Shown here in pieces: positions 1,214 through 28,905 of a stretch of 54,148 nt of DNA. The DNA is from Candidatus Eisenbacteria bacterium. Lineage in GTDB: Bacteria; Eisenbacteria; RBG-16-71-46; SZUA-252. The stretch covers positions 58,229 through 112,376 of the forward strand of contig VBOZ01000029.1 of assembly GCA_005893305.1 (NCBI GenBank), given 5' to 3'. The position numbers were made by a program, and so were the translations under genes. Position 1 is the stretch's first letter; the number at the start of each line of letters is the position of its first letter. The notes under the pieces are model-generated. The model did no database searches and was not told the DNA's origin. It saw nothing but the letters and a program-made list of their open reading frames with translations.

Positions 1214-2101
1214 CTACTCCTGCGACCCGTTTAGCTGGCGGGCGGCCATCAGGTGGCGCACGGCCTCCAGCCGCCGGCCGAGCGATTCCAGCAGCAATCC
1301 AATATTGCAGTGCGCGTCGGCAAAATCGGGATCGCGGAGAATCGCCTGGCGATAGGCGTGGACAGCTTCGTCCCGCCGTCCCACCTCCTCGAGCAGGACG
1401 CCGAGGTTGAAGTGCGGGGTGGGGTCGTCCGGATCGAGCCTCGCTGCCTCACGGTAGTGGGGCTCGGCGCGGCCCAGCTCGCCCGCGATGTGAAGCTGGC
1501 GGCCGAGATTGATGTGCGCGTCGGTCACGCGCGGGTCGATCTCGAGGGCGCGCTGATAGGCCTCGCGTGCCTGCTCGGGCGACGTCGCTTCCAGAGCGCA
1601 GCCGGCCTCGTACCATTGCTCGGCGGTGGGCCCAGGGTCATACGCGGAATCGCCCGGCGCGGCATCTTCACGGCCGACGGCGCCGATGGCGGCCCGCTCC
1701 ACGATCTCGCTGGCCTCGAAGTTGAGGAGAAACTGACCCGAGTCCGGCTGCCAGCGAGAGCCGCCGTCCGAAGCAACTACCTCCTCTCCGTCCGTATGGA
1801 TCGCGATGCTCGTGAGCGGAAGCCCGGCATCGAGCTGCTCGCGGAGAGAAGCCCAGATGCGACGGATCCGCCGCATCGGCACGCCCGATTGGAGGAGTCC
1901 CTTCGTGGTCCGGAGCAGGAGGAGGTCCCGGAAGCCGAACGAGAGGGGACCGACCGGCCCGCGTTGGGGCGCCAGAAATCCGGCGCGGGCCAGGGCGCGC
2001 AGGCGCGCTTCGGGCACTTCGAGGATGCGCGCCGCCTCGCGCAGGGAAAATCGCTGGTCCGACTGAGGCTCCGAGAGGCCGATCTCAGCGTCTACCCTCA
2101 C
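1214..2101 (-). CDS. MerR-type HTH fused to TPR repeats
   Basis: A 295-residue putative DNA-binding regulator. Residues about 16-85 form a MerR-like winged helix (FSLREAARILEVPEARLRAL, then FGFRDLLLLRTTKGLLQSG). Residues about 155-290 hold three to four TPR units with the typical alternation (AREAYQRALEIDPRVTDAHINLG is spread across one unit boundary; NPDP-like turns DPDDPTPHFNLG and DPDFADAHCNIG follow). The start is GTG with GGGGAGG upstream. It lies 25 nt downstream of ku on the same strand and is probably cotranscribed with it. The MerR half lacks the cysteines of metal sensors, so the TPRs probably bind a protein partner. Its target is unknown; control of the ku/ligD region is an inference from position. 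Confidence 0.82.
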   Translation of the reverse strand: MRVDAEIGLSEPQSDQRFSLREAARILEVPEARLRALARAGFLAPQRGPVGPLSFGFRDLLLLRTTKGLLQSGVPMRRIRRIWASLREQLDAGLPLTSIAIHTDGEEVVASDGGSRWQPDSGQFLLNFEASEIVERAAIGAVGREDAAPGDSAYDPGPTAEQWYEAGCALEATSPEQAREAYQRALEIDPRVTDAHINLGRQLHIAGELGRAEPHYREAARLDPDDPTPHFNLGVLLEEVGRRDEAVHAYRQAILRDPDFADAHCNIGLLLESLGRRLEAVRHLMAARQLNGSQE

Positions 2102-2126: not shown

Positions 2127-3023
2127 TCAGCGCTTGTTCCCCTGGACCCTCTTCTCGCGCGGGGCCGGCTCCGCCTTCTGCCGCGCCCGAGTGGCAGGCT
2201 TCTTCTGGAGGGTAGCCGCCTTCTTGGTGCCGGCGTCTTCAGCTCCCGAGCCGCGCTTGCCGAGGCTCTGCTTGAGAGCCTCCATCAGGTCGATCACCTG
2301 CGCGCGCTGCGCCTGCGGCGCGAGCGACGTCACTTCGCGCCCTTCGACCTTGGATTCGACGACCTGGAGGACGCGGGTCCGATACTCGTCGGAGTACTGC
2401 TCCGGACGGAACTTCTCGCTGGTGAGCTCGCCGACCAGCCGCTCCGCCAGGTCCAGCTCGCCGGGCTTGACCTTGGCGGCATCGCCCTTGTCCACCTCGC
2501 CGAAGTCCCGGATCTCATCGGCAAAGTACATCGTGTGCAGCATCAACCCGTCCTTCGCAGGGCGGATGAGCACCAGATTTTCCTTCCCCCGCATCACGAA
2601 CTTGGCGAGCGCCACACGCTCGGACTTCTGCATGGCGTCGGTGAGCAGCCGGTACGCCTTCTCACCGCCCTTGTCCGGGCCCAGGTAGTAAGTCTTCTCG
2701 AAGTAGATCGGATCCACCTCGGCTAGCGGGACGAACTCCGCGATGTCGATCATCTTGTTTGTTTCTTCCTCGAGCGCCTTGAGCTCCTCTTCCGTGAATT
2801 GCACGTACTGGTCCTTAGCGAACTCGTAGCCCTTGACCAGCGCGCCTCGCTCGACGACCTCGTTGCAGGTGGGGCAGATCAGCTGCTGGCGGATGCGTCC
2901 GCCGCACTTCTGGTGGAGCTGGTTGAACGAAACGCCGGCCGAGGTGGCGGCCGAGTACATCTTGATCGGGATCGAAACCAGGCCGAAGGAGATCGTCCCC
3001 GACCCGATGGAGTGCAGCGGCAT
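2127..3023 (-). CDS. ku: Ku DNA end-binding protein (bacterial NHEJ)
   Basis: Homodimeric ring protein that binds double-strand break ends and recruits LigD. The 298-residue length is typical. The N-terminus (MPLHSIGSGTISFGLVSIPI) is the classic bacterial Ku start; the beta-barrel core and the RPEQYSDEY segment follow. The C-terminal 50 residues form a Lys/Arg-rich tail (KKAATLQKKPATRARQ) of the type implicated in DNA threading and LigD contact. The start is supported by GGAGGG 6-7 bases upstream. It is divergent from ligD across 108 bp and is followed by the MerR-TPR gene. Confidence 0.97.
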   Translation of the reverse strand: MPLHSIGSGTISFGLVSIPIKMYSAATSAGVSFNQLHQKCGGRIRQQLICPTCNEVVERGALVKGYEFAKDQYVQFTEEELKALEEETNKMIDIAEFVPLAEVDPIYFEKTYYLGPDKGGEKAYRLLTDAMQKSERVALAKFVMRGKENLVLIRPAKDGLMLHTMYFADEIRDFGEVDKGDAAKVKPGELDLAERLVGELTSEKFRPEQYSDEYRTRVLQVVESKVEGREVTSLAPQAQRAQVIDLMEALKQSLGKRGSGAEDAGTKKAATLQKKPATRARQKAEPAPREKRVQGNKR

Positions 3024-3056: not shown

Positions 3057-3085
3057 ACGCTAGCACCGTGCTTTACTTTGCTCAA
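3057..3085 (-). promoter_or_regulatory. possible sigma70-type promoter for ku
   Basis: On the minus strand TTGAGC (3085-3080) is followed after 17 bp by TAGCGT (3062-3057), about 27 nt before the ku start region. Spacing is ideal but the -10 match is weak. It lies inside the 108-bp divergent ku/ligD intergenic region, the only place such a promoter could be. No equally good match was seen for ligD. Confidence 0.3.
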
Positions 3086-3131: not shown

Positions 3132-5861
3132 ATGTCGCCCCGCACCGGCGCTCCCGGTAAGTCTCGCCCCAGCAAGCCAAAAACCGGCGCCCTGAAGCCG
3201 AAAGCCCGCGGTGCCGCGAAGCCAAAGGCGTCCCCGACGCCGAAGCCCAAAGCCCCTCCAGCGCCTGCCCCGCTCGAGACCTATCGCCGCAAGCGGGACC
3301 CCGGCCGCACGACGGAGCCGTTCGGTGGCGTCTCGGCCGCCCGCGCTCCTTCCGTCGCGACGTCCGGCGGCCAAGCTTCGCGATTCGTCGTGCAGCAACA
3401 CTGGGCGCGCAACATGCATTTCGATCTGCGGCTCGAGTTGGAGGGGGTGCTGAAGAGCTGGGCGGTGCCGAAGGGACCCTCGCTCCGCGCGGAGGAGAAA
3501 AGGCTCGCGGTGCACGTCGAGGACCACCCGATCGAATACGCGAACTTCGAGGGGGTGATCCCGGCCGGGAACTACGGCGCGGGCTCGGTGATCGTCTGGG
3601 ACCGCGGCGGCTACGGCTCGTTCAAGCCCGAGGACATCCGCGAGCAATACGCGCGCGGGAAGCTCGAGCTGGAGCTGTTCGGTCACAAGCTCGGCGGGCG
3701 CTGGACGCTCGTTCGCATGAGCAAGAGCGAGAAGGACTGGCTGCTGCTGAAGAAGGCCGATAGCGCGGCCTCGGAGCAGGACGTGCTCGAGCGTTGGCCG
3801 CGCTCGGTGATCTCGGGCCTCACCGTCCAGGAGATGCGCGACGTGCCCGGCTGGACCGCCGCCCTGCGCGCCCGCGTCGACTCCCTGAAGGCCCCGCGCG
3901 GAGACCTGCGCGCCGACAAGGTTCAGCACATGCTGGCCACGTCGGCCGAGAAGCCCTTCTCGAGGGCGGGCTGGGTGTTCGAGATCAAGTACGACGGCGT
4001 GCGCGTGATCGCCGAGCGCCGCGGCGAGGAAGTGCGGATGCTCGGCCGGAGCGGCGAAGATATCACCGCGCGGTACCCCGAGATCGCCGCGGCGCTCCAT
4101 GGGCTCACCGCGGAACACTTCGTGGTGGACGGCGAGATCGTGGCGTACGACGCGTCGGGTCGCCCGAGCTTCGGCCGTCTACAGAAGCGCATGCTGCTCT
4201 CGCGCCCGCACGACATCGCCGCTGCGATGGCGCGGGTTCCGGTGCGCGCGGTCTTCTTCGACTGCTTGGCGCTCGAGGGCCACGACCTGCGCAAGCTCCG
4301 GCTCCTCGACCGGAAGGAATGCCTCGCCCGCATCCTGCCGCCCGCCGGCATCGTCCAGGCGAGCGACCACATCGCGGAGCACGGCGAGGCGTTTTTCAAT
4401 GCCGCATCCGAGATGGGGCTCGAGGGGATGATCGCGAAGCGCGCCGACAGCGCCTATACGGGCAAGCGATCGTCCGACTGGGTCAAGATCAAGTGCCAGC
4501 GCCGGCAGGAGTTCGTGATCGGCGGCTATGCCGAGCCGCGCGGCGGCGACCGGCATTTCGGCGCGTTGCACGTCGGCGTCTACGAAGGCGATCAGCTCCG
4601 GCACGTGACGCGCGTCGGGAGCGGCTTCGACGGGGCCATGCAAGACCATGTGTGGCAGCTTCTCCAGCCGCTGGCCCGCGCGGAGTCGCCCTTCGGCACG
4701 ACGGGGCCGACCGGTCGCGGCAATCACTGGGTGGAGCCGAAGCTGGTGTGCGAAGTGCGCTTCACCGAGTGGACCGCGGACGGGGGCGTGCGCCATCCGA
4801 TATTCATCGGGCTGCGTACCGACCGGAAGCCCGAGGAGATCCGGCGCGAGGGCGGGCCGGAGAGCGACGCCGCTCCGGAGCCGGACGATGCTGACTCCGG
4901 GACCGGCCCAGGCTCCTCCGCCGGTCCGCCGAGTGCGCCGACGCCGGCCGCCGAGCCGCGCGAGGTCCGCCTCTCCAATCTGCGCAAGGCGTTCTGGCCG
5001 GACGAGGGCTACACCAAGGGCGACCTCGTCGCCTACTACGACACGATCGCCCCGCTCATGTTGCCCTATCTGCGCGATCGGCCCGTGGTGCTCACCCGGT
5101 ACCCGGACGGCATCAAAGGGAAGTCGTTCTTCCAGAAGGACGCCCCGGTGTTTGTCCCCGACTGGATGCGCATCGAATTGGTCTACTCCAAGGACTCCGA
5201 TCGCGACATCCGCTTCTTCGTCCTCGACGATGAAGAGTCGCTCCGGTATGTGGCGAACCTGGGCACGATTCCAATCCACATGTGGAGCGCCCGGTCCGGC
5301 TCGCTCGAGCGCCCCGACTGGCTGGTGCTCGACCTCGATCCCAAGGGTGCGCCCTTCTCGCACGTCGTCGAGATCGCGCGAAGCCTGCATCGGCTGCTGG
5401 AAGAGCTGGAGCTGCCGAGCTACCCGAAGACATCGGGCCAGGCCGGGCTCCACATCCTGATCCCGCTGGGCCGGCGCTACACGCACGAGGAGTGCAAGAC
5501 CTTCGCGCGCGTGCTTGCGTCGCTGGCGTTGGAGGCGAATCCCGAGATCGCCACGCTCGCGCGTCCTCTCCATGCACGCGGCGGCAAGGTCTACGTCGAC
5601 TGGGGGCAGAACGGGCACGGCATCACCATCGTCGCGCCCTTCTCGCTCCGGCCCATCCCGGGCGCGCCGGCGTCGTGTCCGCTCCAGTGGAGCGAGGTGA
5701 ACGGGAAGCTCGACCCCGCGAAATTCACGATCCGGACGCTGCCCAAGCGGTTCGAGAAGATGGAAGACCCGCTCGCGGGCGTGATGGGGAAAGGGGTCAA
5801 CATCGGCGTCGCGATCGCGGCGATCGAGGAGCGATTGAAGCGCAAGGCGAAGCGGAAATGA
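3132..5861 (+). CDS. ligD: multifunctional DNA ligase D (PE-LIG-POL)
   Basis: ATP-dependent NHEJ ligase of 909 residues with all three activities. A basic, Pro/Lys-rich tail (1-60) precedes the 3'-phosphoesterase domain (about 84-230; FVVQQHWARNMHFDLRLE carries the metal/catalytic His and Asp). The ligase domain (about 265-575) has its AMP-accepting lysine at K286 in EIKYDG and the nucleotidyltransferase motifs EGMIAKR and DWVKIK. An acidic/Pro-rich linker (about 572-608) leads to the AEP-type polymerase/primase domain (609-909), with metal-binding aspartates D734 and D736 in LDLDP. The order is as in Pseudomonas LigD. No clear ribosome-binding site precedes the ATG. It overlaps the next gene by 4 nt (ATGA), so it probably opens a longer operon. 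Confidence 0.97.
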   Translation: MSPRTGAPGKSRPSKPKTGALKPKARGAAKPKASPTPKPKAPPAPAPLETYRRKRDPGRTTEPFGGVSAARAPSVATSGGQASRFVVQQHWARNMHFDLRLELEGVLKSWAVPKGPSLRAEEKRLAVHVEDHPIEYANFEGVIPAGNYGAGSVIVWDRGGYGSFKPEDIREQYARGKLELELFGHKLGGRWTLVRMSKSEKDWLLLKKADSAASEQDVLERWPRSVISGLTVQEMRDVPGWTAALRARVDSLKAPRGDLRADKVQHMLATSAEKPFSRAGWVFEIKYDGVRVIAERRGEEVRMLGRSGEDITARYPEIAAALHGLTAEHFVVDGEIVAYDASGRPSFGRLQKRMLLSRPHDIAAAMARVPVRAVFFDCLALEGHDLRKLRLLDRKECLARILPPAGIVQASDHIAEHGEAFFNAASEMGLEGMIAKRADSAYTGKRSSDWVKIKCQRRQEFVIGGYAEPRGGDRHFGALHVGVYEGDQLRHVTRVGSGFDGAMQDHVWQLLQPLARAESPFGTTGPTGRGNHWVEPKLVCEVRFTEWTADGGVRHPIFIGLRTDRKPEEIRREGGPESDAAPEPDDADSGTGPGSSAGPPSAPTPAAEPREVRLSNLRKAFWPDEGYTKGDLVAYYDTIAPLMLPYLRDRPVVLTRYPDGIKGKSFFQKDAPVFVPDWMRIELVYSKDSDRDIRFFVLDDEESLRYVANLGTIPIHMWSARSGSLERPDWLVLDLDPKGAPFSHVVEIARSLHRLLEELELPSYPKTSGQAGLHILIPLGRRYTHEECKTFARVLASLALEANPEIATLARPLHARGGKVYVDWGQNGHGITIVAPFSLRPIPGAPASCPLQWSEVNGKLDPAKFTIRTLPKRFEKMEDPLAGVMGKGVNIGVAIAAIEERLKRKAKRK

Positions 5862-6556
5862 CGAAGGCCGCGCATCCCAGGAGCGCCGAGCCCGTCGGCG
5901 GCGCCATCCGCGTATCCGGAGGCATCGATGTCTCGACGCTGCTGCTCCAGCCAGCGCGGCAGACCGCCCTCTATGTGCTCGCCCACGGCGCGGGCGCCGG
6001 AATGCGGCACCCGTTCATGGAATCGATCGCGCAGCGCCTCGCCGCGCATGGAATCGGCACCCTGCGCTATCAGTTCCCCTACACGGAGCAGGGAAGCCGG
6101 CGGCCCGATCCCGAGCCGCTGCTGCTCGCCACCGTCCGCGCCGCGGTCGCGGCGGGGCGCGAGGCGGCGGGCACCCTCCCGCTCCTGGCCGGCGGCAAGT
6201 CGATGGGCGGACGCATGACTTCGCGGGCCGCCGCATCCGAGGCGCTTCCCGGAGTCGCGGGGGTAGTCTTTCTCGGGTTCCCGCTCCACCCGGCTGGGCA
6301 GCCCGGCGTCTCGCGCGCCGAGCACCTCGCGCGGGTCGACATTCCGATGCTGTTTCTCCAGGGAACCCGCGATACGCTTGCCGACCTCACGCTGCTGGGG
6401 CCGGTCGTCGAGCGACTGGGGGACCGCGCCACCCTGCGCGTGATCGAGCAGGCCGACCACTCGTTCCACGTCTTGAAGCGCAGCGGTCGGACCGATGAGC
6501 AGGTGTTGGACGAGCTGGCCATAGCGACGGCCGAATGGCGGGAGAGCCTGACGTGA
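5858..6556 (+). CDS. alpha/beta-hydrolase, KANL3/Tex30-type
   Basis: A 232-residue predicted serine hydrolase. The ATG at 5858 overlaps the ligD stop (ATGA), which fixes the start although the frame stays open far upstream. The oxyanion/HG segment is YVLAHGAGAGMRHPF, the nucleophile elbow is GGKSMGGRM (Ser near residue 110), an acid candidate is in FLQGTRDTLAD, and the catalytic His is in QADHSFHVLK. This pattern matches the dienelactone-hydrolase-like KANL3/Tex30 group. No signal peptide is visible. Its location between ligD and the DUF72 gene suggests a role linked to the repair operon, but no substrate can be named. Confidence 0.88.
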   Translation: MTKAAHPRSAEPVGGAIRVSGGIDVSTLLLQPARQTALYVLAHGAGAGMRHPFMESIAQRLAAHGIGTLRYQFPYTEQGSRRPDPEPLLLATVRAAVAAGREAAGTLPLLAGGKSMGGRMTSRAAASEALPGVAGVVFLGFPLHPAGQPGVSRAEHLARVDIPMLFLQGTRDTLADLTLLGPVVERLGDRATLRVIEQADHSFHVLKRSGRTDEQVLDELAIATAEWRESLT

Positions 6557-7260
6557 GCGTTGACGTGCGGATCGGTACCAGCGGCTACTCCTATGCCGAG
6601 TGGAAGGGGAACTTCTACCCCGAGAAGATGGCCGCGAAGGACATGCTGCGCTTCTACGCCGAGCGCTTTCCCACGGTCGAGATCAACAACACCTTCTACC
6701 GGATGCCGAAAGAGGCGTTGCTTGCGGGCTGGGCCGAGCAGGTGCCGGAGAGCTTCACGTTCGTGATCAAGGCATCCAAGCGGATCACGCACGACAAGCG
6801 GCTCAAGGAGTGCGGCGAGCTGCTCGCGTATCTCTTCGGGGTCACGTCGACGCTGGGCTCGCGGCTCGGGCCGCTCCTGTTTCAGCTTCCCCCGAACTTC
6901 AAGAAGGACGTGCCGCGTCTCAAGAGCTTCTTCGAGGAGATGCCCGAGCGCCGGCGCGTGGCGGTCGAGTTCCGGCATGCATCCTGGTTCGATGACGAGG
7001 TCTACGAGACCCTGCGCGGCCAGCGCGCCGCGCTCTGCGTGGCGGACACGGGGGAAGAGCCCGCCGCCCCGCTCGTCGCTACCACCGATTGGGGGTATCT
7101 TCGCCTGCGGCGCGAGGACTTCAGCGACAAGGATCTGCGCGACTGGGCCCGGCGTATCCGCGAGCAGCCGTGGGGCGACGCGTACGTGTTCCTGAAGCAC
7201 GAGGAAGAGGGGAAGGGCCCGAAGCTCGCGGCCCGGCTGACGGAGTTCTGCCGCGGGTAG
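6553..7260 (+). CDS. DUF72 domain protein (YecE-like TIM barrel)
   Basis: A 235-residue DUF72 protein, recognisable by the start VRIGTSGYSYAEWKG, the FPTVEINNTFYRMP motif, PLLFQLPPNFKKD and VEFRHASWF. DUF72 proteins adopt a TIM-barrel fold related to endonuclease IV-like enzymes, but their reaction is not established. I chose the GTG at 6553 because it forms a GTGA overlap with the upstream stop and has GGGAGAG about 7 nt before it. An in-frame ATG at 6535 would add six residues but has no ribosome-binding site. Together with its neighbours it forms a tightly packed run. Confidence 0.92.
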   Translation: MSVDVRIGTSGYSYAEWKGNFYPEKMAAKDMLRFYAERFPTVEINNTFYRMPKEALLAGWAEQVPESFTFVIKASKRITHDKRLKECGELLAYLFGVTSTLGSRLGPLLFQLPPNFKKDVPRLKSFFEEMPERRRVAVEFRHASWFDDEVYETLRGQRAALCVADTGEEPAAPLVATTDWGYLRLRREDFSDKDLRDWARRIREQPWGDAYVFLKHEEEGKGPKLAARLTEFCRG

Positions 7261-7293
7261 GGTGGCCCGCGGAGATCGAGGCATGGACGCGCG

Positions 7294-10200
7294 GTGAAGC
7301 TCGAGACCGGCACCCTGAGGCTTTCGGCCACCGACCTCGCGAACCACCTCGCCTGCCGCCACCTGACCGGCCTGGATCGAGGTGTCGCCGAGGGCCGGTG
7401 GAAGCCGCCGGATTGGTTCAGGCCCGAGGCAGCCCTGCTCCGCGAGCGGGGCCTCGAGCACGAGCGCGCGTACCTCGCTCACCTCGAGCGGCAGGGACGG
7501 CGGATCACGCGCGTCGACGAGGAGATCGAAGGCCGGCGCGCGCTCGAGCTGACGGTCGCCGCGATGTACGCGGGAGCCGAGGTGATCGCGCAGGCGACGC
7601 TGGCGGTCGGGCGCTGGCTCGGACGGGCCGACATCCTGCTTCGCGTGGAGCGCCCGAGCGGGCTCGGCGCGTGGTCCTACGAGGCGCTCGACACGAAGCT
7701 GGCGCGTGAGACGAAGGCCGGCGCCGTCCTCCAGCTCTGCCTCTATTCGGAGCTCTTGGGCGAGATCCAGGGAGTCGTGCCGGAGCGCATGCACGTGGTG
7801 CCGCGGCGGCCCGACTTCCCGCTCGACACCTACCGCGTCGAGGATTACCTCGCCTACTACCGCCTCGTGCGCCGCCGCCTCGAAGCCGCGGTCGACGCGG
7901 TCGAGGGGAACGGCGCCACCACCTATCCCGATCCGGTGCCGCACTGCGAAATCTGCCGCTGGTGGCCGCGATGCGATCGGCAAAGGCGCGCCGACGACCA
8001 TCTCTCGCTCGTGGCCGGGCTCTCGCGCCTTCAGGCGCGCGAGCTCAAATCCCGCGAGGTCACGACGCTCGCGGCACTCGCGGCGGAGCCGTTGCCCATT
8101 CGCTGGAAGCCGGCCCGCGGCGCCAAGGACGGCTACGGCCGCGTTCGGGAGCAGGCGCGCATCCAGCTCACCGGCCGGACCGAGCACCGACATCTGCACG
8201 AGCTCCTTCCCATAGCGCCGGGACGCGGGCTCGCCTGCCTGCCCGCTCCCTCGCCGGGCGACCTGTTCCTCGACCTCGAGGCCGATCCCTACGTCGACGA
8301 GGGCGGGCTTGAGTACCTCTTTGGTTGGGCTGTCGCGGACGATCCTCCGCCCGGGACGCTGGAGCTGGAAGTGCGTCCGCCCGTCTACCACAGCCGCTGG
8401 GCGCTCGACCGGGCGGCCGAGCGCCGCGGCTTCGAGACGCTGATGGACGCGATCATGGGTCGCTGGGCGCTCGACCCGAACATGCACGTCTATCACTACG
8501 GCGGGTACGAGACGGGGGCGATCAAGCGGTTGATGGGCCGACACGCCATGCGCGAGGCCGAAGTCGATCGCCTGCTGCGGGCGGGGCGCTTCGTGGATCT
8601 GCACGCCCTCGTGAAGCAGTCGTTGCGTGCGAGTGTCGAGGAATACTCCATCAAGAAGCTCGAGGCGTTCTACGGTTTCGAGCGCAAGCAGCCGCTCGAG
8701 GAAGCCGGCGCCGCCCTGCGCGTGATTCAGGGGAGCTTGGAGCTGGGCACGGCGGTCGCCGCGGAAGACGAGAGCGCGCGCATCGTGGAAGCCTACAACC
8801 GCGAGGACTGCCTTTCGGCTCGCGCCTTGCGCGACTGGCTCGAGGTCCTGCGCGCCGGCGCGGAGGCCGGCGGCGTCGAGATTCCGCGGCCGGCCGAGGA
8901 ATCCGGCGACCCGAACGAGGCGATCGGCGATCGGGAGCGCCGCACGCTCGAGCTGGCGGGGCGACTCCTGGCCGGAGTACCTGTGGAGGCCGAGGAGCGT
9001 TCCGAGGAGCAGCAGGCGGTATGGCTTCTCGCCCACATGCTCGACTTTCATCGGCGCGAGGAGAAGGCGCCGTGGTGGGAGTACTACCGCCTGCGCGAGC
9101 TGCCGGACGAGGAGCTGCTCGACGAGACGTCGGCGCTCGCGGGACTCGAATTCGCCGAGCATCTCCCGGCGAGCGGCCGTACCGCGGTGGATCGATACCG
9201 TTTCCAGGCCCAGGAGACGAGGATCCGAGAAGGCGACAAGCTCCACCTGCCGCTCCCGGACGGGCGCCGGTTCGGCGAGGTGGAGAGGATCGATTTCGCG
9301 GCGCGCACGCTCGACGTGAAGAAGAACGCTGTGTGCGCCGCGCATCACCCGGCCAGCGTCTTCGCGCACGATACCAGGGCATCGAAGGTGCAGGCGGATT
9401 CGCTCCTGCGACTCGGCGACTGGGTGGCCGCGCACGGCATCGACGCGCCCGGCGAGTACCGGGCCGCGCGCGACCTGCTGCTCCGGCGCACGCCGCGGCT
9501 TACCGTTCCAGTGAAAGGGCCGCTCGAAATGCCTGGGGAAGGAGGCGTGCGCGCGGCGCGCCGGCTCGCGCTTCTTCTGGATCGCGGCACCCTCGCCGTT
9601 CAGGGTCCGCCCGGATCGGGCAAGACCTTTACCGGAGCCCGCATGATCTGCGACCTCGTCCGGGCGGGGAAACGGGTGGGAGTCTGCGCGGTGAGCCACA
9701 AGGTGATCGTGAATCTCTTGAAGGAGGTCGTGAAAGCCGCCGAGGAGGAGAACGTTTATGCCCCCTGTCTCCGCAAGGCGGAGGAGGATGCCGTAGGCGA
9801 ACCCGGCATCGCGGTGACCGACGACAACGTCGCCGTTCTGGCCGCGCTTCGGACCGGCCAGGCTCGCGTCGCCGGCGGCACCGCGTGGCTGTGGGGCAGG
9901 AAAGAGTATTCCGAGTCCGTGGATGTCCTGTTCGTGGACGAGGCCGGGCAGATGTCCCTTGCGAACGTGCTCGCGATCGCCCCGTGCGCGAAGAGCCTGG
10001 TTCTGCTCGGCGATCCGCAGCAGCTCGAGCAGCCGATCCAGGGCTCTCATCCCGAAGGCACCGCGGTCTCGGCGCTCGAGCACGTCTTGGATGGCGCCCA
10101 GACGATCGCGGACGACCGCGGGCTCTTCCTCGAGGAGACCTGGCGGCTCCCGCCCGCCATATGCGGGCTCACGTCCGAGCTCTTTTACGAGCGACGGCTG

Positions 10201-10770
10201 CACCCGCGCGCGGGCGTCGAGCGGCAGGTGCTCCTCGGTGACGTTCCGTTCGCGGGCTCGGGGTTGTGGTTCGTTCCGGCCCGGCACGATGCGAATCAGG
10301 GTGCCAGCCCAGAGGAAGTGGAAATCGTCGCCGAGCTGGTGAGGACGCTGATGGAAGGCGGCGTTCGATGGCGCGATCGGGACGGCCGTGAGAGCCCGCT
10401 CGGCCTGGGCGACATCCTCGTGATCGCCCCCTATAACGCGCAGGTCGCCGACCTGACCGCGCGGCTTCCAGCTGGGGCGCGCGTCGGCACGGTGGATCGA
10501 TTTCAGGGGCAGGAGGCGCCGATCGTGATCTACTCCATGACGACGTCGACGCCTGAGGACGCCCCGCGGGGCATGGAGTTCCTCTACAGCCCCAACCGCT
10601 TCAACGTGGCCACGTCGCGCGCGCAATGCGTTTGCATCGTGGTGGGAAGCCCGCGCCTCTTCGAGCCGGACTGCCAGAGCCCCAGACAGATGAAGCTCGC
10701 GAACGCCTTCTGCCGATTCCTGGAGGTGGCTCGGGAGGTGCGCATCGGTCCGCGGGCTGCTATTCTCTAG
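7294..10770 (+). CDS. TM0106-type RecB nuclease / DEDD nuclease / SF1 helicase fusion
   Basis: An 1158-residue cytoplasmic DNA-processing enzyme with three modules. Residues 1-240 are a TM0106-type RecB-like nuclease: GRADI (D113), YEALDTK (K135), QLCLY, plus C21 and the trio C218/C221/C227 (HCEICRWWPRC), spaced as in Fe-S-containing Cas4/AddB nucleases. Residues about 320-515 form an RNase H-like DEDD exonuclease of YprB type: FLDLEADPY, HVYHYGGYE, FVDLHALVKQ, YNREDC. Residues about 750-1145 form a Dna2/Upf1-like SF1 helicase with Walker A GPPGSGKT (near 771), Walker B LFVDEAGQ (near 880), GDPQQLEQP and a C-terminal VDRFQGQEAP/NVATSRAQ pair. The GTG start is assigned from the conserved N-terminus. 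It starts 33 nt after the DUF72 gene and ends 2 nt before the EVE gene. Confidence 0.93.
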   Translation: MKLETGTLRLSATDLANHLACRHLTGLDRGVAEGRWKPPDWFRPEAALLRERGLEHERAYLAHLERQGRRITRVDEEIEGRRALELTVAAMYAGAEVIAQATLAVGRWLGRADILLRVERPSGLGAWSYEALDTKLARETKAGAVLQLCLYSELLGEIQGVVPERMHVVPRRPDFPLDTYRVEDYLAYYRLVRRRLEAAVDAVEGNGATTYPDPVPHCEICRWWPRCDRQRRADDHLSLVAGLSRLQARELKSREVTTLAALAAEPLPIRWKPARGAKDGYGRVREQARIQLTGRTEHRHLHELLPIAPGRGLACLPAPSPGDLFLDLEADPYVDEGGLEYLFGWAVADDPPPGTLELEVRPPVYHSRWALDRAAERRGFETLMDAIMGRWALDPNMHVYHYGGYETGAIKRLMGRHAMREAEVDRLLRAGRFVDLHALVKQSLRASVEEYSIKKLEAFYGFERKQPLEEAGAALRVIQGSLELGTAVAAEDESARIVEAYNREDCLSARALRDWLEVLRAGAEAGGVEIPRPAEESGDPNEAIGDRERRTLELAGRLLAGVPVEAEERSEEQQAVWLLAHMLDFHRREEKAPWWEYYRLRELPDEELLDETSALAGLEFAEHLPASGRTAVDRYRFQAQETRIREGDKLHLPLPDGRRFGEVERIDFAARTLDVKKNAVCAAHHPASVFAHDTRASKVQADSLLRLGDWVAAHGIDAPGEYRAARDLLLRRTPRLTVPVKGPLEMPGEGGVRAARRLALLLDRGTLAVQGPPGSGKTFTGARMICDLVRAGKRVGVCAVSHKVIVNLLKEVVKAAEEENVYAPCLRKAEEDAVGEPGIAVTDDNVAVLAALRTGQARVAGGTAWLWGRKEYSESVDVLFVDEAGQMSLANVLAIAPCAKSLVLLGDPQQLEQPIQGSHPEGTAVSALEHVLDGAQTIADDRGLFLEETWRLPPAICGLTSELFYERRLHPRAGVERQVLLGDVPFAGSGLWFVPARHDANQGASPEEVEIVAELVRTLMEGGVRWRDRDGRESPLGLGDILVIAPYNAQVADLTARLPAGARVGTVDRFQGQEAPIVIYSMTTSTPEDAPRGMEFLYSPNRFNVATSRAQCVCIVVGSPRLFEPDCQSPRQMKLANAFCRFLEVAREVRIGPRAAIL

Positions 10771-10772
10771 CC

Positions 10773-11180
10773 ATGGCAAGATTCCTTGTTAAGACCGAGC
10801 CCTCGACCTACTCGTTTGACGACCTTCAACGCGACAAGCGCACGGTGTGGGACGGAGTGTCGAACCCGGTCGCCCTGAAGTACCTCGCCACGATCCGCAA
10901 GGGCGATACCGTGATCGTGTACCACACCGGGGACGAGAAGCAGGCCGTGGGGCTGGCGGTCGCGACCTCGGATGCCTACCCGGACCCCAAGCTCAAGGAT
11001 CCAAAGCGGCCGGTGGTGGACCTCGCGGCCGAGAGAGGGTTGCCCCAGCCGGTGACGCTGGCGCAGGTGAAGGCCGACGTCGTGCTCAAGGGCACCGAGC
11101 TGGCGCGCCTGCCCCGGCTATCGGTCATGCCGTTCAGCGAAGCTCATTTTCGACGCCTGCTGAAGCTCTCGGGAGCGTAG
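10773..11180 (+). CDS. EVE domain protein
   Basis: A 135-residue single-domain EVE (PUA/YTH-like superfamily) protein. Diagnostic segments are FLVKTEPSTYSFDDL, TVWDGVSNPVALKYL, KGDTVIVYHTGDEKQAVGLA and the C-terminal LSVMPFSEAHFRRLL. EVE domains are known or predicted to bind modified bases in nucleic acid and often sit beside restriction or DNA-processing enzymes. The ATG lies 2 nt after the helicase stop with no ribosome-binding site, so translation is probably coupled to the helicase. The conserved Trp and Asn of the WDG...N motif are present. A role as modification reader for the upstream nuclease-helicase is inferred from this coupling. Confidence 0.93.
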   Translation: MARFLVKTEPSTYSFDDLQRDKRTVWDGVSNPVALKYLATIRKGDTVIVYHTGDEKQAVGLAVATSDAYPDPKLKDPKRPVVDLAAERGLPQPVTLAQVKADVVLKGTELARLPRLSVMPFSEAHFRRLLKLSGA

Positions 11181-11229
11181 GGGGCGGGGAGTCGGGTGGG
11201 TCGCATCTCACAACAGAAGGGGTAGCACG

Positions 11230-11508
11230 ATGTGCAGGAACATCCGGACGTTGTTCAACTACTCGCCAACCGCTACGGATGAAGAGGTCCGCGCCTCCGC
11301 ACTCCAGTTCGTCAGGAAGGTCAGCGGGTTTACCAAGCCGTCGCTCGCCAACCAGGCGGCATTCGACCGCGCCATCGATCAGGTCGCCCACGCCGCGCGA
11401 ACGCTGCTCGATTCGCTGACCACCACGGCGCCCCCGAAAGACCGGGACACCGAAGCGGCCAAGGCCCGGATGCGCGCGGCCGAGAGGTTTGGAGCCGCGC
11501 GGGGCTGA
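11230..11508 (+). CDS. DUF2277 domain protein
   Basis: A 92-residue small cytoplasmic protein matching DUF2277: it begins MCRNIRTLFNYSPTATDEEV, followed by ALQFVRKVSGFTKPS and an all-helical remainder. The length is normal for the family and its function is not known. AGAAGGGG precedes the ATG within about 10 nt. It lies 49 nt after the EVE gene on the same strand and could be its operon partner, and it is convergent with the CsgG-like gene 16 nt away. Confidence 0.88.
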   Translation: MCRNIRTLFNYSPTATDEEVRASALQFVRKVSGFTKPSLANQAAFDRAIDQVAHAARTLLDSLTTTAPPKDRDTEAAKARMRAAERFGAARG

Positions 11509-24548: not shown

Positions 24549-26607
24549 TGATGTCTCCGGTGGTATAGCGGAATCGCTCGCTCGCCAGCAGCGCCGCTAG
24601 GTCGGCGACGGTCTCAGCCGGTATGAGCGATACGCCCATGACGTTGCGCCTGCGGTACGCCTCCAGTTGATCCTCGACTGAAACGCCCCGCATGGCGGCC
24701 CGCTCTTTGACGAACTTCAAGAAGAGCGGCGTCTCGATCTGATCTGCGTTGATGGCGTTCACTCGAATGCCGTCGCCGCCCAGCTCGACGGCGGCGACCC
24801 GCATCGCCTGGAGCAGCGCTGCCTTGCTCCCACCATACGCCGCGGCGTCCCGGCCCGGCGCCATGGCGGCCTTCGATACCGACGCGACGATCGAGCCACC
24901 CAGCTGCTGGCGTCGCATGACGGACGCAGCCGACCCCATCGCCAGAACGGCGCCAATGTAATGGACATTGAGCTGATGCTGAAGATCCTCGCGCCGGATC
25001 TCGGTCACGCCCGCGAATCGGGGCGCCTGGCCCGCCGTGTAGAACAGGCTATCGAGACCGCCGAACTCGAATACCGTTCGCCGCACCAAGCGCGCGAGAC
25101 TCTCGTCGTCCCGGACGTCCAGCGCGACACCAATGGCGCGGCCCGGGTACGTTGTCTTGATCCCGGCCGCTACCGCCTCGGCGGACCCGCCGTCGAGGTC
25201 AGCGACCACGACGTGCGCGCCTTCCTCGACGAAACGCCGGGCCGCAGCCTGTCCGATCCCGCTCCCGCCGCCGATCACAACCGCTATGTGGCGGGGGAGC
25301 AGCAACGAGGCTTTCTCTTTGGCGTCCTGTTCGTCAACCTTCCGCCGCTCGAGAGGCCAGTGCTCGAACTCGAAGACGTCCGCCTCGGAAAGGAACCGGA
25401 ACGCGTCGATCGCCTCCGCGTTCGCGATCGTCTCGAGCACGGCCCGATAACACAGATTCGCCGTGACGGCGCTCCGCTTGTCCCGGGACGCGGTGATCAT
25501 CCCGAGACCTGGTGCAAGCACGACCTTTGCCCAGTCGTCGAGCGGAGCCTCGCCATTGGTGGCGTGCCGCGCGTGATAGTCCTCGTATTCCTTCCGCTGC
25601 CGCCCGAGCTGAGAGCGGACCACCGCGGCCGTCTCCTCCGGGGGTGCGGTCGGATCGAGGTCCAGCCACGCGGGAAGCGCCCCGGCACGCAGGATGTGTT
25701 CCGGCGTCGCCATCCCGCGGCGGGCGAGCGCGGGGAGGCCTTTGTTCGCGAGAGCGGTCAGGACATCGTCGGAGTCGTCGAAATGCAGGATGACGCGGTT
25801 CGTCGATCCAAGGGCGCCGCGAACGACGGGAAGCACGAGCTCGGCGGCGCGCCGGCGAACGTCCACCGATGGGGTCGGGACCAGCTCGGCTCGCGGCGCG
25901 GTCCGACTGCGTCGCTTCGAGAGCAGGTAGTCCTCGATCACGTTCACGGCGCGGAGCAATCGCGCGTAGCACTCCCGCGAATCCTCCCCCCACACGACCA
26001 GGCCGTGATGTGCGAGCGCGAGCCCGATGGCCCCGCGCGGCAGCCGATCCACGATGCCGCTGACCGCTCGGGCCAGGGGGAACCCCGGGCGCACGTACGG
26101 CACGTATACGATTTCTCCCGCGAACAGCTCGGCAACGAGTCGCTGCGCGACAGCATCCCCCACGTTGGTGAGGCTCATCGTCGGGACGTCGTGGGTGTGC
26201 GCGATGACCCGATGGGGGAGGAGCGAGTGAAGCGGCGTCTCCACGCTCGGCGCGGGCCCTTCAGCCAGCATCGCGCGCGCCATGAATTTCATCATTTCGG
26301 CGTCGTGCATCGTCTCGATAGTCCGCAGCGTAGCCAGGGCCGCCAGCGACAGGCGCGTGAATCCCTCCGGCCCGACCGTGCGCAAATCGGTGCCGCTTCC
26401 CTTGACCAGCAACGCATCCCCTACCTTGATCGACGTGTTACCACCGCCGGGCTGCACCAGGCGGGGTTCTTGTCCGATGAGGTTCGAGAGGTAGACGAGC
26501 TGCGCGAGGTCGTCCGCGCCGGGCGCGGGCCCGGCACCCCAACGATCGTCGATTCGCGCGGAGACGCTGTGTGCGACCATGCTTGGCAGCGAGGAGTTAG
26601 GCGCCAC
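24508..26607 (-). CDS. bifunctional class II aldolase / short-chain dehydrogenase (RhaD-like)
   Basis: A 699-residue fusion of the type that acts on methylpentoses: the aldolase half splits a ketose (rhamnulose-like) and the dehydrogenase half oxidises the lactaldehyde or an alcohol. Residues about 30-400 are class II aldolase, with zinc-binding His in VIAHTHDVPTM and LALAHHGLVVWG. Residues about 440-699 are SDR, with VIGGGSGIGQAA and the YGGSK catalytic pair. The first codon used is GTG 26607, which overlaps the RNB gene end by 11 nt; ATG 26580 is an alternative and neither has a strong ribosome-binding site. No other sugar-degradation gene is near. Confidence 0.9.
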   Translation of the reverse strand: MAPNSSLPSMVAHSVSARIDDRWGAGPAPGADDLAQLVYLSNLIGQEPRLVQPGGGNTSIKVGDALLVKGSGTDLRTVGPEGFTRLSLAALATLRTIETMHDAEMMKFMARAMLAEGPAPSVETPLHSLLPHRVIAHTHDVPTMSLTNVGDAVAQRLVAELFAGEIVYVPYVRPGFPLARAVSGIVDRLPRGAIGLALAHHGLVVWGEDSRECYARLLRAVNVIEDYLLSKRRSRTAPRAELVPTPSVDVRRRAAELVLPVVRGALGSTNRVILHFDDSDDVLTALANKGLPALARRGMATPEHILRAGALPAWLDLDPTAPPEETAAVVRSQLGRQRKEYEDYHARHATNGEAPLDDWAKVVLAPGLGMITASRDKRSAVTANLCYRAVLETIANAEAIDAFRFLSEADVFEFEHWPLERRKVDEQDAKEKASLLLPRHIAVVIGGGSGIGQAAARRFVEEGAHVVVADLDGGSAEAVAAGIKTTYPGRAIGVALDVRDDESLARLVRRTVFEFGGLDSLFYTAGQAPRFAGVTEIRREDLQHQLNVHYIGAVLAMGSAASVMRRQQLGGSIVASVSKAAMAPGRDAAAYGGSKAALLQAMRVAAVELGGDGIRVNAINADQIETPLFLKFVKERAAMRGVSVEDQLEAYRRRNVMGVSLIPAETVADLAALLASERFRYTTGDIITVDGGLPEAFPR

Positions 26608-28111
26608 TAGCCCGTCCGCGGGCCGGGGCTGCCGCGTCGTGGTGGACGCAGGTGAAGTCGATGAATCCGCGCTCCGGATCTGTGTGGGTGAGCTTCAGGC
26701 GCACGCGGTCGCCGACATCGAGCCCTGCCGCACCCTGCTCGATGCGGCCCTCGACCGGCGGGTCGAAAATACGCGCCCACGTCCCCTTGTCGGACGCGCC
26801 GGTGACGATTCCTTCGAATTCCTGGCCGATCCGGTCCGTGAGCAGATAGGCGGCGGCCGCCTTTCGCAGGAGGCGCTCCACCTTCTGGGCATCGTCCTCT
26901 TTCTGCGTACAGTGCGCCGCGAGCGCCTCGAGCGGGTGGCGATCGTACGGTACCGGTTGTCCGGCAAGGGCGGCCTTGACCAGCCGTTGCGTGATGAGAT
27001 CTGGGTAGCGCCGGTTCGGTGCCGTGGAGTGAGTGTAGTCGTTCACCGCGAGGCCAAAGTGGCCGGTGACCTCCTGGCCCGGGAAGCTGGCTTCGTATTC
27101 GCCGCGGCCGAGCAGCTTGATGACCGATAGCGAGAGGTCAGGAAAACGGAGCGGATCCGCGGCACGTCGCCGAGTCAGGAAGTCGTGCAGAGCACTCGCG
27201 TCGGGCGTGGAAGGGAGCGGGTCGCCGAATTGCGCGGCGATGTCGACGATGCGTTGCCAGCGCTCGGGCGAGCGCACAACGCGCCGCATGACGGGGAAGC
27301 GGTGGTCCGTCAGGAACCGGGCGATGGCGCCATTCGCAGCGATCATGGAGTCCTCGATGATCTCCTTCGCGCGGTTCCTGTCCTCAGCCACGAGGCCGCT
27401 CAACGAGTCGCCGTCGAATGTGGCGCGCACCTCGATCGTCTCCAGCTCCAGCGCGCCATGTTCGTGGCGCCAGGCTTTGAGACGCTGGGCCGCGCGATCT
27501 TGAAGACGGAGGTTGTCGGCCAGTCCCGCCACGGCGGCGATCGCCGGCGGCATCCCACCCCGGCCCTCGAGCCACGCGCCAACGCTCGAATAGGCGAGCT
27601 TGGCTTGGTTCCGCACGATGGCGCGGTAGACGCTCGAAGTATCGCTCGAGCCCACGTCGCCGACCACGATCTCCACGACGACGGCCATCCGGTCCTCGCC
27701 CTGGCCGAGCGACGTGAGATTCGTGCTGAGTCGCTCGGGCAGCATGGGGAAGTTCTGCGGCACCGTGTAGATCGAGGTTGTATTGGCGCCCGCATGGCCG
27801 TCCAGAGCGGAGCCAGGCACCACCGACGCGCTCACGTCGGCAATCGCGACCAGAAGCCGGGTGCCGCCGCCAGGGACGGGTGCGGCCACGGTGAGCTGGT
27901 CAAGGTCACGCGAGTCGTCGTTATCGATGGAGCACCAGACAAGCTCCCGCAGGTCGCGTAGGTCGGGGCCGAATGGAGCCGCCGGGGCCGCAATTCGCTG
28001 CGCCTCGGCAAGTGCCGCGGCCGAAAACTCGGGCTCGAGACCTCGCGCGACCATCGCCTGCCGCGCTACGCGCAGCAATAGAGCGCGCTCTCCTTCCATC
28101 CGCACGCTCAT
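26597..28111 (-). CDS. RNB-domain exoribonuclease (RNase II/R family, short)
   Basis: A 504-residue 3'-5' exoribonuclease. The RNB block has SIDNDDSRDLDQL with the metal-binding aspartates, IADVSASVVPGSALD and DYTHSTAPNRRYPDLITQRL. A C-terminal S1-like barrel (about 430-490, EFEGIVTGASDKGTWARI) is present, while the N-terminal cold-shock barrels of classical RNase II are missing. The start at 28111 forms an ATGA overlap with the LOG gene stop; the frame is open well upstream, but that stretch lies within LOG. Likely role: RNA turnover. Confidence 0.92.
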   Translation of the reverse strand: MSVRMEGERALLLRVARQAMVARGLEPEFSAAALAEAQRIAAPAAPFGPDLRDLRELVWCSIDNDDSRDLDQLTVAAPVPGGGTRLLVAIADVSASVVPGSALDGHAGANTTSIYTVPQNFPMLPERLSTNLTSLGQGEDRMAVVVEIVVGDVGSSDTSSVYRAIVRNQAKLAYSSVGAWLEGRGGMPPAIAAVAGLADNLRLQDRAAQRLKAWRHEHGALELETIEVRATFDGDSLSGLVAEDRNRAKEIIEDSMIAANGAIARFLTDHRFPVMRRVVRSPERWQRIVDIAAQFGDPLPSTPDASALHDFLTRRRAADPLRFPDLSLSVIKLLGRGEYEASFPGQEVTGHFGLAVNDYTHSTAPNRRYPDLITQRLVKAALAGQPVPYDRHPLEALAAHCTQKEDDAQKVERLLRKAAAAYLLTDRIGQEFEGIVTGASDKGTWARIFDPPVEGRIEQGAAGLDVGDRVRLKLTHTDPERGFIDFTCVHHDAAAPARGRASGA

Positions 28112-28905
28112 CGCGGGTTCCTCGGAGAGGAAGTGACCGACGGCGCGATCGCCGGGGTAGTGGCCTCCATCCCAATGGCGAGCCCCTGCTTCAGGGCCTC
28201 GAGCGCCTCGCCCGGGCTGTCCACGAGATGGAACAGTTCGAGATCCTTCTCTTGGATCATCCCGTGGCGCACGAGCGCCTTGAAGTTCACGATCTCGTTC
28301 CAATAGGCAGAGCCGTACAAGAGGACGACCATGCGCCGGTCGAGCTTGCCGGTTTGCGCCAGCGTCAGAATTTCGAAGAGTTCGTCCAGGGTCCCGAAGC
28401 CTCCCGGGAACGCCACGATCGCGCGCGCTAGGTGCGCGAACCAAAGCTTGCGCATGAAGAAGTAGTGAAATTCAAGTGAGAGCCCCGGCGTGATGTAGGG
28501 ATTGGGGCGCTGCTCGTGGGGCAGACCGATGTTGAGCCCGACCGTGCGCCCACCCGCCTCGGCCGCGCCCCGATTCGAAGCCTCCATGATCCCTCCGCCC
28601 CCACCCGTGCAGACGACGAAACGATGCGCTGGAGAATTCAGCCCCATGGACCACTCGGTGACCAGGCGCGCGAGCTCGCGGGCCTTGGCGAGGTACGTGC
28701 CGAGAGGGTCGTCCTCGCGCACCCTTGCAGACCCGAAAAAGACGATGGTGTCGTGGAGGCGCCGTTGCCGGAAGACATGGAGTGGCTGGAGGTATTCTGA
28801 GAGGATGCGCAGCGGCCGCCCATCCTCGCTGTCGAGGAATTCTTCGCTGCGATAAGCGAGGGGCGGTCGTGCATCCGCGGGTGACGGCTGGTTGGGCTTC
28901 GTCAT
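28108..28905 (-). CDS. LOG family protein (TIGR00730-like nucleotide phosphoribohydrolase)
   Basis: A 265-residue Rossmann-type protein with the two LOG motifs: GGGGGIMEASNRGA and PGGFGTLDELFE. LOG enzymes release the base from nucleoside 5'-monophosphates (AMP or cytokinin ribotides); several bacterial members are general nucleotide hydrolases. The long form, with about 55 extra N-terminal residues, is the version common in bacteria. It is first in a leftward run LOG-RNB-aldolase/SDR, overlapping RNB by 4 nt. No strong ribosome-binding site was seen before ATG 28905. It is divergent from the aldo/keto reductase across about 130 bp. Confidence 0.92.
   Translation of the reverse strand: MTKPNQPSPADARPPLAYRSEEFLDSEDGRPLRILSEYLQPLHVFRQRRLHDTIVFFGSARVREDDPLGTYLAKARELARLVTEWSMGLNSPAHRFVVCTGGGGGIMEASNRGAAEAGGRTVGLNIGLPHEQRPNPYITPGLSLEFHYFFMRKLWFAHLARAIVAFPGGFGTLDELFEILTLAQTGKLDRRMVVLLYGSAYWNEIVNFKALVRHGMIQEKDLELFHLVDSPGEALEALKQGLAIGMEATTPAIAPSVTSSPRNPR

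Follow-up and report, generated by a model that had tools for sequence, protein, structure and literature searches.

Results

The window, by which we mean the whole 54,148-nucleotide stretch analyzed here from a Candidatus Eisenbacteria bacterium, contains a non-homologous end joining (NHEJ) locus. Bacterial NHEJ is usually pictured as Ku and LigD alone, with Ku binding and pairing DNA ends and LigD filling and sealing them. As in two-component systems, Ku (minus strand, 2127–3023) and a three-domain LigD (plus strand, 3132–5861) are divergently encoded, their starts 108 nt apart. In the window, however, LigD is followed on the plus strand by genes for an α/β hydrolase (5858–6556), a DUF72 protein (6553–7260) and a TM0106-type nuclease-helicase (7294–10770), while a MerR-TPR gene lies behind Ku. 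The run continues with a single-domain EVE protein (plus strand, 10773–11180). The junctions are −4 nt for LigD/hydrolase, −4 nt for hydrolase/DUF72 (the DUF72 start codon is GTG), +33 nt for DUF72/nuclease-helicase and +2 nt for nuclease-helicase/EVE. The first-pass annotation had described these five genes, with the same families and junctions and with Ku divergent from LigD, and all of this was confirmed. It overlooked two neighbors: the MerR-HTH and TPR protein, a candidate regulator (minus strand, 1214–2101; Pfam MerR_1 and TPR), whose gene lies 25 nt behind Ku, and a DUF2277 protein (plus strand, 11230–11508; PF10041), encoded 49 nt after EVE. The host is a soil bacterium.

Judging by their spacing, the genes from LigD to EVE are probably carried on one transcript. 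The arrangement is best explained as two divergent units with a common 108-nt promoter region, Ku and MerR-TPR on one side and LigD, hydrolase, DUF72 and nuclease-helicase, with EVE and DUF2277 as possible additions, on the other. The gene run is more than chance, since its core is found again in relatives, where the short gaps match. Within the promoter region, a block TTGAGN-N17-TAGCNT (minus strand, 3057–3085) is common to seven of the eight divergent regions of type A, of which it is the best-conserved part; it is promoter-like and would read towards Ku. A scan with the sigma-70 consensus gave no match, and the block emerged solely from genome comparison. The same pattern was absent 5′ of Ku in Acidobacteriota and of the other Eisenbacteria Ku genes tested. 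The MerR-TPR gene adjoins Ku in Eisenbacteria and, among Acidobacteriota, in 18 of the 53 Ku regions.

Ku (PF02735) contains the bacterial Ku core, matching TIGR02772 at 314.6 bits against a cut-off of 150. LigD scores above the cut-offs of TIGR02776, 02777, 02778 and 02779 and has phosphoesterase, ligase and primase-polymerase domains, with their catalytic motifs present. The hydrolase belongs to Abhydrolase_11 (PF20408, E = 4.4e-54), and its GxSxG motif is intact.

The nuclease-helicase matches TIGR03491 over its full length (model positions 2–462 of 462) at 241.8 bits, with a cut-off of 97.45. It combines an Fe-S PD-(D/E)XK nuclease, a DEDD exonuclease and a UPF1/Dna2-like SF1B helicase. 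The catalytic residues of all three modules are conserved, and C21, C218, C221, C227, D113, K135, Q147, Y151, D327 and E329 are invariant in 50 sequences. A whole-chain Foldseek search with the predicted model returned Dna2 (5ean) as the top match, at about 14% identity. Like Dna2, the protein carries a four-cysteine PD-(D/E)XK nuclease ahead of its SF1B helicase. Unlike Dna2, it belongs to the bacterial TM0106 family and has an RNase_H_2 domain (residues 324–516) between nuclease and helicase, where Dna2 has no extra exonuclease, and it is therefore Dna2-like rather than a Dna2. The model and the invariant residues thus show what is predicted to be a Dna2-like machine with an additional DEDD exonuclease. 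COG2251 proteins are known to pair a RecB-like nuclease with an RNase H-like exonuclease, often together with AAA domains (PMC3985635), as does the protein in the window. A literature search on TM0106 returned unrelated papers only, and the papers found assign the family no function.

When the helicase region is searched alone, its closest relatives are IGHMBP2 and UPF1. This would suit an RNA-processing unit, in which a UPF1-like helicase, a DEDD exonuclease and an EVE protein that reads RNA lie beside NHEJ genes by accident, all the more as many members of the PUA-like superfamily to which EVE belongs bind RNA (PMC7641849). The Fe-S PD-(D/E)XK module and the whole-chain match to Dna2 nonetheless indicate DNA, and the phyletic coupling described below is with a DNA-repair pathway, making an RNA-processing unit improbable.

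The DUF72 protein has a TIM-barrel fold (PF01904, 221 bits, cut-off 25.3, E = 2.4e-65) and matches TM1631; its model gives a Z score of 22 against 1vpq and 1vpy. More distant matches are to endonuclease IV (Z = 14.8) and sugar epimerases (Z = 16), so that the fold suits an epimerase as well as a lesion nuclease, a point against a role in end joining. While it has PF01904 in common with TM1631, the window's protein lies in an NHEJ-linked subgroup, whose members are 46–81% identical to it. DUF72 proteins of rhizobial plasmids (35–40% identity) showed no NHEJ linkage in the stretches read. Leads tying DUF72 to DNA damage exist (PMC3828134, PMC11791011), and a literature search for DUF72 together with LigD found no papers.

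We then asked whether these genes are scattered in related genomes. For most of the unit they are not. The LigD-hydrolase-DUF72 series, with its 4-nt overlaps, was found again in other Eisenbacteria, and DUF72 together with the nuclease-helicase lies beside Ku or LigD in both Eisenbacteria and Acidobacteriota, the gene order taking two forms. The two genes usually overlap, by 4 nt at five loci in these two phyla, and the LigD proteins at the DUF72/nuclease-helicase loci are of two types, only ~36% identical. In 4 of the 53 Ku regions of Acidobacteriota (~0.04 expected), DUF72 is immediately next to Ku or LigD, and it follows Ku in Gemmatirosa (Gemmatimonadota), so it is found beside Ku or LigD in three phyla, in differing orientations. 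Outside Eisenbacteria and Acidobacteriota, the nuclease-helicase had no convincing recurrent neighbors: clusters present in 4–8 loci were generic families at varying distances, except for DUF72 in a few. Absences or linkage can be masked in draft assemblies.

The nuclease-helicase also tracks NHEJ across genomes. In one Eisenbacteria family, Ku is present in 6 of 7 genomes with the nuclease-helicase vs. 0 of 13 without it, at equal mean genome size. Ku is found in 9 of 12 Acidobacteriota with the nuclease-helicase vs. 37 of 137 without, and LigD in 6 of 7 Bacteroidota with it vs. 21 of 146 without. All three comparisons are raw counts that ignore ancestry, and NHEJ presence follows genome size (PMC7719229); both points weigh against a functional tie to NHEJ, as does the lack of LigD in 7 of 38 genomes with the nuclease-helicase. 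Given these LigD-less carriers and the lack of recurrent neighbors in most phyla, the nuclease-helicase must also work outside the operon.

The window's genes group with those of another family (f11) rather than with the host's own (f1), and the block therefore seems to have been transferred. A misbinned contig was considered and rejected: the contig (C29) is 256 kb long and its tetranucleotide profile matches the rest of the genome, so we treat it as authentic and attribute the f11-like genes to transfer. This grouping is what would be expected of a mobile block whose genes move together among soil bacteria, each doing its own job, and the hydrolase and the EVE-DUF2277 pair do look like separate modules. 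However, nuclease-helicases that are unlinked in three genomes (G025, G037 and G045) still track Ku, and DUF72 returns beside Ku or LigD in three phyla in different orientations. We consider a mobile block with no joint function unlikely.

The EVE protein (PF01878, 102.3 bits, cut-off 23, E = 3.1e-29) is a single domain of 135 residues, like other standalone bacterial EVE proteins, and its closest solved relative is Rpa0253 (PDB). Apart from the window, only two genomes have EVE next to the nuclease-helicase (G026 and G034, the latter cut off at a contig end), and one Acidobacteriota locus has EVE next to Ku. Elsewhere EVE genes are unlinked or lie beside DUF2277, a frequent partner in Eisenbacteria (pairs at L143, L146, L148 and L151), and they are common in Ku-less genomes. 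The main text of a survey of EVE domains mentions neither NHEJ nor DUF2277 (PMC7641849). EVE is probably a weak, optional member of the unit, either a co-transcribed passenger or an occasional accessory.

The first-pass annotation had linked end joining to an end-processing machine with EVE as a putative modified-base reader for targeting, perhaps for break repair or defense. The recurrent, non-random link of NHEJ with the nuclease-helicase and DUF72 bears out the first part, while a targeting role for EVE is doubtful given its unstable linkage. A defense module, in which EVE picks out foreign modified DNA, the nuclease-helicase attacks it and NHEJ mends collateral breaks, would fit the role of EVE domains in modification-dependent restriction, where they provide specificity (PMC7641849), and the resemblance of the helicase region to Mokosh and Dpd helicases. 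But PADLOC matched only the generic helicase region (MkoA, MkoC and DpdJ), with one weak hit to PDC-S37 in the Walker A region and no full-length defense match, and returned nothing for the other five proteins tested. As the nuclease-helicase also lacks recurrent neighbors outside Eisenbacteria and Acidobacteriota, we regard defense as very improbable.

Discussion

We favor, with a probability of roughly 0.6, an extended NHEJ locus in which Ku and LigD are joined by a nuclease-helicase that processes ends and by what may be a lesion nuclease, with EVE as an optional member. Genome comparison is what suggests the tie of the nuclease-helicase and DUF72 to NHEJ. Ku would bind and pair the ends, and LigD would fill and seal them. 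The SF1B motor of the nuclease-helicase, most likely acting as in Dna2, would open the DNA end, and its Fe-S PD-(D/E)XK and DEDD nucleases would strip flaps and damaged or structured termini that LigD could not seal. More speculatively, DUF72, whose fold is in common with endonuclease IV and UV-damage endonuclease, might excise damaged nucleotides near the end. In mycobacterial NHEJ, UvrD1 is a Ku-dependent helicase (PMC3656841). For the window's protein, likewise an SF1 helicase, we also propose a partnership with Ku, but it is of the UPF1/Dna2-like SF1B type, is fused to two nuclease domains and is encoded within the NHEJ locus.

The link of the TM0106 family to NHEJ is the new part. A broader proposal, which we put forward tentatively and lean somewhat against, is that the nuclease-helicase is a dedicated, widespread NHEJ end-processor, functionally comparable to Artemis or Dna2, that DUF72 is another nuclease preparing the ends, that MerR-TPR regulates the pathway, and that NHEJ is a multi-protein pathway in several phyla. 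Cultured carriers exist, including Olivibacter sitiensis, Segetibacter koreensis and Chryseolinea (nuclease-helicase and LigD) and Gemmatirosa (Ku-DUF72), and the idea is therefore directly testable. Little is known of the nucleases that clean difficult ends before sealing in bacterial NHEJ; should the coupling prove real, the TM0106-type nuclease-helicase, DUF72 and a regulator would be candidate NHEJ factors.

Locus organization

The locus lies on contig C29 of a 2.75 Mb draft genome of 39 contigs; among named genomes, those nearest to it are metagenome assemblies of Candidatus Eisenbacteria. From a 108-nt divergent region, Ku is read on the minus strand, followed after 25 nt by a MerR-HTH/TPR protein (window 1214-2101). 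LigD, with all three domains present, an Abhydrolase_11 hydrolase, a DUF72 protein, a nuclease-helicase (1158 residues; 7294-10770), EVE and DUF2277 are read from the same region on the plus strand, with junctions of -4, -4, +33, +2 and +49 nt. The first-pass annotation had placed LigD through EVE on one strand with Ku divergent; we confirmed this arrangement, its coordinates and its gaps, and add the MerR-TPR and DUF2277 genes it had overlooked.

A 29-nt block, TTGAGN-N17-TAGCNT (3057-3085, oriented towards Ku), is common to seven of eight divergent Ku-LigD regions, is the most conserved stretch of those compared, and looks like a promoter. Its 17-nt spacer contains, in the window, the short palindrome GCACGGTGC. 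As in the window, a MerR-TPR gene comes immediately after Ku in other Eisenbacteria and in 18 of 53 Acidobacteriota Ku regions (loci with this arrangement include L188, L189, L198-L204, L208, L211, L227, L229, L233, L242, L245 and L246); its product is a candidate, apparently undescribed, NHEJ regulator.

The nuclease-helicase and DUF72

The nuclease-helicase matches TIGR03491 (TM0106 family) across the full model; an RNase H-like domain of the DEDD type and an SF1 helicase of the UPF1 type are present as well. Across 50 homologues from many phyla, four cysteines (21, 218, 221, 227), the RecB-type residues D113, K135, Q147 and Y151, the DEDD residues D327, E329 and D435, and the helicase residues K777, D882, E883, Q910, R951 and R1109 are invariant, and D505 nearly so; all three enzymes are therefore probably active, judging from sequence. 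The AlphaFold2 model (mean pLDDT 90) has Dna2 as its top Foldseek match, the alignment covering nuclease and helicase, while the helicase part alone is nearest to IGHMBP2 and UPF1. Since Dna2 lacks the extra exonuclease, the protein probably works like Dna2 but is not a Dna2.

The DUF72 model matched DUF72 crystal structures (Z ~22), sugar epimerases (16) and endonuclease IV (14.8). As sugar epimerases match too, the fold by itself is no proof of nuclease activity. Published work predicts that TM1631 is a DNA-binding endonuclease (PMC3828134); another study finds DUF72 enriched in the neighbourhood of polB2 damage-response operons and calls it close to UV-damage endonuclease (PMC11791011). NHEJ-linked copies are 46-81% identical to the window DUF72; unlinked copies from Eisenbacteria and rhizobial plasmids, directly compared, are 30-40% identical. 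G037 carries a DUF72 of the NHEJ-linked subgroup with a separate gene for an ATP-dependent DNA ligase 80 nt away (L166 7459-9233).

Recurrence and origin of the locus

Ku is present in 16 of 47 Eisenbacteria genomes. LigD-hydrolase-DUF72, with short or overlapping junctions, was found again in G034, G043, G039 and G041, and contig breaks in G026, G042 and G035 are compatible with it; DUF72 is followed by the nuclease-helicase in G034, G026 and G035. Ku and nuclease-helicase are on separate contigs in G045, G025 and G037. G038 has another order: one strand carries MerR-TPR, Ku and LigD, while DUF72 and nuclease-helicase are divergent. This order is seen again in Acidobacteriota G047 (L035), G103 and G176, and up to DUF72 in G220. 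G038-type LigD is ~36% identical to that of the window and the LigD tree splits deeply between the two types, while their DUF72s and nuclease-helicases cluster closely; the pair therefore seems to stay with NHEJ despite LigD exchange and rearrangement. In L132, L133, L035, L188 and L189, the DUF72 and nuclease-helicase genes share a 4-nt overlap, and Ku is directly followed by DUF72 in Gemmatirosa kalamazoonensis.

The 53 Acidobacteriota Ku regions hold MerR-TPR (18), DUF72 (6, 4 abutting), hydrolase (4), nuclease-helicase (3) and EVE (2), vs. MerR-TPR (2), DUF72 (4) and hydrolase (1) in 1.94 Mb of control regions; the 17 control EVEs all come from regions picked for EVE and provide no fair control.

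The nuclease-helicase also tracks NHEJ across genomes. Uncorrected for shared ancestry, Ku is present in 9/12 Acidobacteriota with it vs. 37/137 without (149 genomes; Fisher p=0.001), in 9/9 when only homologues at least 48% identical are counted (7/7 with two previously known genomes removed, p=2e-4), and, within Eisenbacteria family f11, in 6/7 carriers vs. 0/13 non-carriers (p=2e-4); LigD is present in 6/7 Bacteroidota carriers vs. 21/146 non-carriers, likewise uncorrected. NHEJ presence tracks genome size (PMC7719229); mean sizes in f11 are 3.51 Mb (6/7 group) and 3.58 Mb (0/13 group).

The block genes are 67-84% identical to f11 genomes vs. 46-77%, lower for each gene, to same-type homologues in the window's own family, and genomes of its genus have a different NHEJ type. 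In composition the contig matches the host genome. The block was most likely acquired by transfer from a donor resembling f11. A second RNase II-type protein (26597-28444) has a matching lateral pattern, with 73-77% identity to several f11 and f2 genomes against 61-66% within the window's own family. The 2840-residue ORF at 41596-50118 is ordinary, GH94/glycoamylase-type, and probably encodes a cyclic beta-1,2-glucan synthase.

EVE and the role of the locus

EVE is present in all 16 Ku-positive Eisenbacteria (including a contig-end fragment in G034) and in 10 without Ku; within f11 its association with Ku is not significant (p=0.08). Among compared Eisenbacteria, only G026 and G034 have it after the nuclease-helicase, in G034 truncated by the end of the contig. 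Its recurrent partner, where one was seen, is DUF2277 (L143, L146, L148, L151). The EVE-DUF2277 pair (window 10773-11508) repeats in Eisenbacteria on the same strand or divergently, irrespective of NHEJ genes. In Acidobacteriota, EVE lies near NHEJ genes twice, with 0.16 expected from a rough one-per-genome density (p ~0.01); one case (L210 5802-7334: all on one strand, with a small cysteine-rich ORF separating Ku from EVE) is an independent juxtaposition of Ku and EVE. The linkage holds for LigD, hydrolase, DUF72 and nuclease-helicase; EVE is best regarded as an optional member. The suggestions that EVE acts as a guide and that the locus serves defence found no support. The locus is best explained by a putative end-processing role within NHEJ.
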